Source: Hadesarchaea archaeon
GTDB lineage: Archaea; Hadarchaeota; Hadarchaeia; Hadarchaeales; Hadarchaeaceae
DNA length: 64,000 nt
Assembly: GCA_029259175.1 (NCBI GenBank)
Contig: JAPDJH010000005.1
Location: forward strand, 1 to 64,000
Reading direction: 5' to 3'
Under the pieces are notes generated by a model. The model did no database searches and had not been told where the DNA came from. It saw only the letters and a program-made list of their open reading frames with translations. Positions 28,827 through 30,565 of this stretch are shown piece after piece (position 1 is the first letter of the stretch; every line of letters starts with the position of its first letter). The position numbers and the translations under genes are program-made.

Positions 28827-29788
28827 AGGGGTTGAAGGTCCTCGACGTAGTTGGAATCGGGACTCCAGTAGTAGACTGCTTTGCGACAATTACCGATGAC
28901 TTCCTGAAATCCCGAGGGCTCAGAAAGGGAGCCACCAATTTTCTGCCGCGAGCGGAGCTGGACGCTCTGGAAGGAGCTGTAAAGGTAAAACACGTGTTAC
29001 CAGGAGACAACGCAAGAAACGTGTGTGAGGGAATCAGCATGTTGAACGGGAGCGCTGCGTACGGCGGTTGCGTCGGAAAGGACTGGGAGGGTCGGTTCTT
29101 CTGCCGGACGTTGGAGATGTTGGAAATTCATTCCGAAGTCGTTTTCGAGCGTGGAAGAACTGGAAAAATTCTGGTGCTCCTCACGCCCGACAAGGAAAGA
29201 ACGTTCGCGGTGGATTTAGGAAACAGTACTCAGTACCGCCGGGTTGCTAGAAAAGTTTTGCGGAGAACCCGATTTCTTTATCTCACATCGATAACGGCTT
29301 TGACCTCTGGGTCGCTGAGACGCACTGCCCTAACATGGATGGAGCAAGTGCTGGAATCTGGCGGGCGGATCGCCTTATCGCTGGAAAGTCCTCCGATGAT
29401 TCGAAAACACAAACAAGAAATTGTCCGACTCATAGACCAGACGCACATCCTTTTCGCAAACAAGGTAGAATACAGAAGTCTTGGTATGTCCATCGAAACC
29501 ATTCGACGGAAAGTTGAATGTTTCTTTCTCAAGATGGGAAAGCAGGGATCCAAAGTAGTGTGGGGTCGGTCCACTGCTCGGATTCCTTGTCTTTCTAAAC
29601 GAGTAGTTGACACCACCGGGGCTGGGGACTACTACGCTGCTGGCGCGCTCCACGGCTTGGCACGCGGACTCTCTCCGGAAAAGGCGGGAGTACGAGGCGC
29701 CGAACTGGCGGCGAAAATAGTGGCTAGAACGGGAGCTAGCTTTTGCGGCTTAGCTCCCAAGGGAAAACGATCCAATCGCTCGTTTTGA
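28823..29788 (+). CDS. PfkB-family carbohydrate/nucleoside kinase
   Basis: 321 aa from the GTG at 28823 (GTGA overlap with carS). Ribokinase fold: VVGIGTPVVDC, a GDNARNVCEGI motif where ribokinases have GGNxxN, GSAAYGGCVGKDWEG, and the C-terminal VDTTGAGDYYAAGAL anion hole with the catalytic Asp. The substrate (sugar or nucleoside) is not clear. Its 3' end overlaps the convergent phosphoribosyltransferase by 53 nt. Confidence 0.87.
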   Translation: MKGLKVLDVVGIGTPVVDCFATITDDFLKSRGLRKGATNFLPRAELDALEGAVKVKHVLPGDNARNVCEGISMLNGSAAYGGCVGKDWEGRFFCRTLEMLEIHSEVVFERGRTGKILVLLTPDKERTFAVDLGNSTQYRRVARKVLRRTRFLYLTSITALTSGSLRRTALTWMEQVLESGGRIALSLESPPMIRKHKQEIVRLIDQTHILFANKVEYRSLGMSIETIRRKVECFFLKMGKQGSKVVWGRSTARIPCLSKRVVDTTGAGDYYAAGALHGLARGLSPEKAGVRGAELAAKIVARTGASFCGLAPKGKRSNRSF

Positions 29789-30179
29789 ACAAAAAATAAT
29801 CGGGAACAAGCTTTGAGCGCGGCTTGTATGCAAGGGCGGCGGTCTTGACGTTCTTAACTCCTCTGCCTGATAGAAAGCACTTAGCGAAGCGCAAGGTGAC
29901 TCCTGTATCGGCGACATCGTCTACAATCAAAACCCGGCCTTTCAAATCGCCAGGGGCCGAAATCAGCTTGGGTCGGGAGAGCCTTCGCTCGCCAGCGTAG
30001 TGCCTGATGTGGACTACCCGGAACTCGCATCCCAAGAGATGGGAAAGCATCACCGCCACAACGAGCCCCCCGCGGGCGATTCCGATCACGACATCCGGCT
30101 CGAAGTCCTCGCGAACAAGATTGGCAAGTTTTTTGACCAGCGACTCGGTTTGTCGCCAAGAAAGGTATTTCTTTTTCAT
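29736..30179 (-). CDS. Phosphoribosyltransferase (XGPRT-like)
   Basis: 147 aa from the ATG at 30179 (MKKKYLSWRQTESLV). The frame continues upstream without stop to 30473, but that part is GC-rich and hairpin-filled and looks non-coding. VIGIARGGLVVAVML and the PRPP loop VLIVDDVADTG identify a type I phosphoribosyltransferase, close to archaeal purine salvage enzymes of about 150 aa. A second, longer PRT lies at 30951. Confidence 0.87.
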   Translation of the reverse strand: MKKKYLSWRQTESLVKKLANLVREDFEPDVVIGIARGGLVVAVMLSHLLGCEFRVVHIRHYAGERRLSRPKLISAPGDLKGRVLIVDDVADTGVTLRFAKCFLSGRGVKNVKTAALAYKPRSKLVPDYFLFKTSDWIVFPWELSRKS

Positions 30180-30185
30180 CCCATC

Positions 30186-30470
30186 GGTTCTCTTCAGAAC
30201 TCTAGACCCGCAAATACTTTCGCCGGCCTCTCCCCGAAACGGGCTTAAACGGGAAGGCGGAACCGTTTTACGGGATGCCCGGGCCAGTGATTCCAGCGCG
30301 CGCTTCCCGCACCGTCCGTGGCGCTCTGCGGGAAGCAGAACACGCACAGATCGGCAAGCCCGGGGAAGAGGTTCCCGAAGCAGCGCTCCGGGAACGGGGC
30401 CGTGCGGGTTCCGGCCCTGAAGGCGGCCTAGAGCCGTCAACTTCGGAGGTCGAGACTTCCGAAGAGAACC
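30186..30470. ncRNA. GC-rich hairpin cluster, putative structured RNA
   Basis: This stretch of about 285 nt has no supported gene and is much more GC-rich than its flanks. It holds several perfect inverted repeats in a row: GGTTCTCTTC (30186-30195) with GAAGAGAACC (30461-30470), which could close the whole structure; GCTTCCCGCA (30302-30311) with TGCGGGAAGC (30327-30336); GTTCCCG (30371-30377) with CGGGAAC (30389-30395); GGGCCG (30397-30402) with CGGCCC (30412-30417); and CTTCGGA (30441-30447) with TCCGAAG (30458-30464). I do not find the hallmark motifs of archaeal RNase P RNA, SRP RNA, 5S rRNA or tRNA on either strand. Strand unknown. Because it lies between divergent genes, some repeats could be regulatory. 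Confidence 0.45.
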
Positions 30471-30565
30471 CATCCCATCGAGATTACAATAAACACTCGA
30501 GAGTAAAAGAGTTTAGTTTCCCAAAACCGCTAAAATAATGAGTTGTGGAAAAACACTCAGGGAAA

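Follow-up and report, generated by a model that had tools for sequence, protein, structure and literature searches.

The segment at positions 30186-30470 of the window (the whole 64,000-nucleotide stretch of Hadesarchaea archaeon DNA that was analysed) is a miniature inverted-repeat transposable element (MITE), a non-autonomous DNA transposon of about 285 bp with IS6/IS1-like ends. The best explanation of the whole is a MITE with a replication/repair-type promoter that would transcribe a structured non-coding RNA of about 200 nt, a reading to which we assign a probability of roughly 0.85. The new MITE is the firm result, and the promoter box common to the MITE and other genes is the most interesting one. 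The features of the locus are as follows.

30177..30185, no strand: left target-site duplication CATCCCATC; both flanks are identical over 9 bp, and it includes the phosphoribosyltransferase start codon (30179-30177)
30186..30470, + strand (the direction of the internal promoter): MITE copy 1 of 5
30186..30211, + strand: left terminal inverted repeat; no mismatch in the outermost 10 bp, and 21 of 26 bases shared with the right end
30213..30222, + strand: upstream half of the box, AATACTTTCG; also present in promoters of 16 out of 22 family genomes, and almost unchanged from one MITE copy to the next
30228..30240, + strand: downstream half of the box, CTCTCCCCGAAAC; its GAAA would overlap the expected BRE position
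30243..30249, + strand: TATA-like element GCTTAAA; invariant in the five copies, with constant spacing after CTCCC in 21 of 29 boxes
30268..30470, + strand: predicted transcribed body, a constrained GC-rich non-coding stretch; start at 30268-30275 predicted from TATA spacing
30302..30336, + strand: hairpin 1, GCTTCCCGCA...TGCGGGAAGC; paired in 5 of 5 copies, one pair varying between U-G and C-G
30371..30395, + strand: hairpin 2, GTTCCCGAAGCAGCGCTCCGGGAAC (GTTCCCG...CGGGAAC); 98% of cells paired over the five copies
30445..30470, - strand: right terminal inverted repeat
30471..30479, no strand: right target-site duplication CATCCCATC

A search of the element's own genome recovered five full-length copies on three contigs, 285-287 bp in length and 85-91% identical to the 285-nt query. 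At this length they fall within the size range of MITEs, under about 600 bp. The copies, all oriented alike, align end to end, and their similarity ends at the termini GG...CC. These termini are terminal inverted repeats, GGTTCTCTTC...GAAGAGAACC, in which 16-21 of the 26 outer bases match over the five copies. Each copy has its own flanking direct repeat (CATCCCATC, TAGGAAGGG, CTAGAG, GCTCACGA and TCAGCCTCT), which is a target-site duplication. Four copies have a duplication of 8-9 bp; in the remaining copy it spans 6-8 bp (CTAGAG, imperfect, with one mismatch inside 8 bp). The duplication GCTCACGA is offset by one base. Left and right flanks compared between different copies have merely 2-5 bases in common. 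Terminal repeats combined with flank-specific duplications mark a DDE-type transposon, which in this case lacks a gene, and the presence of both at five copies therefore identifies the element as a MITE. Searches of 27 other genomes of the phylum and of a phage collection did not recover the element. The exact pattern of both ends together had no match in a contig collection, which may exclude the element's own genome.

The sequence-only reading had described this segment as GC-rich and gene-free, with several inverted repeats, and had proposed a possible undescribed structured RNA. The segment is 64% GC, and the outer pair, the inner stem and a second hairpin were all located. The outer 10-bp pair, GGTTCTCTTC at 30186-30195 and GAAGAGAACC at 30461-30470, is present as described, but it is the terminal repeat of a transposon and not the closing stem of an RNA. 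The inner 10-bp stem is formed by GCTTCCCGCA (30302-30311) and TGCGGGAAGC (30327-30336), the arms of hairpin 1, and is paired in the five copies. The lack of a gene was borne out by frame-shifting indels between copies and by variable sites without a codon-position pattern. Hallmarks of known RNAs had also been reported missing, and the segment indeed has no Rfam match at gathering score; the best hit below it is to an unrelated alphaproteobacterial sRNA (18.6 vs 40 bits). A tRNA or tmRNA was ruled out, and the window's three tRNAs lie elsewhere. The proposal thus holds in part: the segment does have structure and had no earlier description, but five MITE copies with terminal inverted repeats and duplications show that it is no free-standing RNA gene.

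All five copies sit in gaps between divergently transcribed genes. In the case of copy 1, the neighbours are a phosphoribosyltransferase gene (- strand, start codon at 30179) and a TOPRIM gene (+ strand). The duplication contains the phosphoribosyltransferase start codon, so the promoter of this gene must, by inference, now lie in or beyond the element. Neighbours of the other copies, named by reading translations, are an acyl-CoA-synthetase-like and a DUF296-like gene; an amidohydrolase and an EngB-like GTPase; two winged-helix-like genes; and a ThrRS-N-like and a SufS-like gene. In relatives, a small zinc-finger gene (MGRVAGVCAMCG...) was observed between the phosphoribosyltransferase and/or TOPRIM genes, at the place of the MITE (L112-L116), and because of this gene no base-level comparison with an element-free site could be made.

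Candidate relatives of the mobilizing transposase are one protein in a relative and decayed fragments in the element's own genome. The relative G020 has a TIR-like end (GGTTTTCCTCGGAA) and, about 85 bp downstream of it, a protein in which a zinc ribbon is joined by the beginning of a DDE-like domain. This protein scores 47 bits against each of the NCBIfam models for IS1 and IS6 transposases, below both cut-offs. In the element's own genome, a single matching end (GGTTCTCTTCGGAACTTTTGAC) is followed by a truncated zinc-ribbon ORF (L012, near 150004 on C2), which is probably a remnant of the parental insertion sequence, and a decayed transposase occurs at L098. In this genome, which is incomplete (91%), the search for an intact transposase with such ends yielded only decayed fragments. 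Mobility would be provided in trans by an IS1/IS6-related DDE transposase with a zinc ribbon. IS6 elements have ends of the form GGTTCTGTTGCAAA and 8-bp duplications, and the family has two known MITEs, 227 and 336 bp long (PMC6807381, PMC7986276). The end of the present MITE, GGTTCTCTTCGGAA, matches the consensus GGTTCTGTTGCAAA at 10 of 14 positions by eye, and its 8-bp duplications are as in IS6-family MITEs and archaeal IS6-like elements. Unlike the IS6 family, the nearest transposase here has a zinc ribbon and fits the IS1 and IS6 models equally.

A bipartite box, ACTTTCG-N6/8-TCTCCCCGAAA, stands in each copy immediately upstream of a TTAAA element. The TATA-like element begins 9-10 bases after CTCCC in 21 of the 29 boxes listed, five being the MITE copies. 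An upstream box, followed at fixed spacing by a BRE/TATA-like element and then by genes, constitutes a predicted archaeal promoter. Over the five copies, 29 of 30 columns of the box and TATA-like element are invariant, as compared to 32 of 69 neighbouring left-hand columns (p=8e-7), and the box thus looks maintained and not a relic. The box and TATA-like element would transcribe rightwards into the element, and the transcript (GC-rich, hairpin-forming, non-coding and about 200 nt) may run on toward the right-hand gene. Each insertion would also bring a replication- or repair-type promoter beside the flanking genes.

The same box occurs elsewhere in Hadesarchaea. With up to two mismatches allowed, the pattern turned up in 16 of the 22 family genomes, and the reversed control gave no match at all; the named records with the box are mostly labelled Hadesarchaea. 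Matches in other genera are limited to element positions 28-76, with no similarity in relatives beyond the promoter region; they share AATACTTTCG-N5/8-CTCCCC(G/A)AAA, followed by a TTAAA-type element. Replication and repair genes downstream of the box, identified by Pfam or NCBIfam, encode MCM, an OB-fold RPA-like protein and TopoVI-B; at MCM, about 275 nt separate the box from the point where the detected ORF starts. The box also lies upstream of genes for TnpB (L007, L008, L040 and L068, by Pfam or NCBIfam), Y1 transposase TnpA (L075), LAGLIDADG proteins (L009, L052, L063 and L071) and a DDE transposase matching ISC1217 (L035). In the element's own genome, it precedes NurA (L101) and a LAGLIDADG gene (L100), the latter with two boxes in tandem. 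Judged from this gene list, the box has the look of a signal for a replication/repair regulon, one that mobile elements share. No description of the box was found in a literature search that had most subscription journals outside its reach.

Several further observations were made at loci with the box. A common form, ACTTTCGG-N5-CTCCCC(A/G)AAA followed by a TATA-like element, was seen in relatives at L007, L008, L009, L026, L031, L035, L036, L040, L052, L063, L068, L071 and L075, and in the element's own genome at L100 and L101. Upstream of MCM (L031, L032, L034, L042, L043, L046, L051 and L074), a repeated TTTCCACTGTTTTCGACTGTTTCCACTCGAAC-like sequence was noted by eye 100-130 bases before the box; these repeats are possibly origin-recognition elements. 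An exact 20-base box core occurs at L058 and L070, in MAGs labelled Hermodarchaeota and Euryarchaeota, without promoter-like context; these cores may be chance matches or come from misbinned contigs. Where a TnpB or TnpA gene lies downstream (L040, L044, L068, L075 and L103-L108, in relatives G006, G012 and G015), the box is directly adjoined, each time in one register, by a GC-rich hairpin (CCCCTTCC...GGGAGGGGATGA); similar hairpins occur at L028, L030 and L033. The hairpin resembles IS200/IS605 ends or TnpB guide-RNA scaffolds, with the box where the guide would be, and it may be either the hairpin of a left end or a guide RNA that targets the box. An IS200/IS605 left end or a TnpB guide RNA was considered as a description of the element itself, since the first matches in other genera preceded TnpB genes. 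That description was rejected because, outside the box, the element does not resemble those loci, and because boxes also stand in front of MCM, RPA-like, TopoVI-B and NurA genes.

The body of the element was examined for constraint and structure. Over about 170 nt, 140 of 171 columns are invariant among the five copies; the corresponding figure for the left part is 32 of 69 columns (p=9e-8). Folding of both strands against shuffled sequence, which the sequence-only reading had suggested, gave copy 1 a better fold than dinucleotide shuffles, with z=-4.2 on the + strand and z=-7.4 on the - strand. The latter value is peculiar to copy 1; the other four copies range from -2.6 to -5.1 on the - strand and from -2.3 to -4.6 on the + strand. 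Once the terminal repeats are removed, z is about -1 to -3, and the body on the + strand folds modestly better than shuffles (z of -2.1 to -3.5 over the five copies). The overall fold differs among copies. Compensatory changes in homologues, whose absence had been named in advance as refuting an RNA, did not rise above shuffles on either strand (2 of 96 pairs on the + strand and 0 of 100 on the -), in a comparison of only five similar sequences that has little power. Selection on one RNA strand was also sought in G-U-preserving changes. The + strand was favoured initially, and paired-column substitutions proved balanced (17 G>A and 17 C>T). A structured transcript of about 200 nt from the body is plausible and is treated here as putative.

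Two explanations that dispense with transposition or with RNA have little standing. Five paralogous RNA genes forming an immobile family would account for a structured, GC-rich, intergenic and promoter-bearing sequence, but this is contradicted by the flank-specific duplications and terminal inverted repeats at all five copies, and its absence from 27 other genomes of the phylum also counts against it; we regard it as very improbable. Still harder to credit is a protein-coding gene running through the element, either as the ATG frame 29736-30473 on the - strand or as the + strand frame from 30275. Both frames are open across the GC-rich element, but indels of 1-2 nt between copies shift the frames, so that no shared protein results, and variable sites have no codon-position pattern.

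The remaining alternatives differ in what the MITE carries. A functional structured non-coding RNA could be the point of the element, which would then be a mobile gene for an RNA of about 200 nt that is under selection as RNA and spreads as a MITE. The transposon would have captured the replication/repair promoter box, and the RNA would be made together with that machinery, as the TnpB, TnpA and homing-endonuclease genes would be. The conserved promoter directed into the body, the constraint on that body, the two hairpins kept in all copies and the + strand body z-scores of each copy are consistent with such a gene. Against it stand covariation at shuffle level on both strands, an overall fold that varies by copy, paired-column substitutions without strand preference and the absent Rfam match, and the constraint could instead stem from binding of the DNA by a transposase or another protein. 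We consider this a possible account and hold it tentatively. Alternatively, the element would be a plain MITE that owes its structure solely to its palindromic ends and high GC content, its box being no more than the passive remnant of a promoter picked up by chance. This account agrees with covariation at chance and with the stable stem-loops that are common in MITE transcripts (PMC10969869). However, the promoter core has changed far less than the columns beside it, and the body is also constrained, although unexpressed filler should vary evenly; the account appears doubtful and rather unlikely.

Our preferred reading, a MITE whose replication/repair-type promoter would transcribe a structured RNA, has parallels among known elements. 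Promoter-carrying prokaryotic MITEs include the Correia elements of Neisseria, MITEAba12 and BrickBuilt (PMC10969869). Like the element here, these are short, gene-free and intergenic, with terminal inverted repeats, target-site duplications, an internal promoter and transcripts able to form stem-loops. Their promoters are sigma-70-like and bacterial, whereas the present one is predicted to be archaeal and, unlike those of bacterial promoter MITEs, has a box that it shares with replication/repair genes and with further mobile elements. The element here is GC-rich, whereas MITEs are described as typically AT-rich (PMC10969869). Archaeal MITEs have been named for Sulfolobus, Haloquadratum and others (PMC10969869), and these are non-autonomous IS derivatives, as here. 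An archaeal MITE with a conserved promoter of such a kind was not found in a literature search, with most subscription journals beyond its reach.

Promoter MITEs are known in bacteria; here, an archaeal MITE shares its box with MCM, RPA-like, TopoVI-B and NurA genes and with at least four kinds of mobile-element genes. If the element is a mobile RNA gene, the box would be an undescribed Hadesarchaea regulon element, used by several unrelated mobile elements to time their activity. If the box is a co-regulated replication/repair signal, the selfish DNA of Hadesarchaea would have repeatedly tied itself to that programme.
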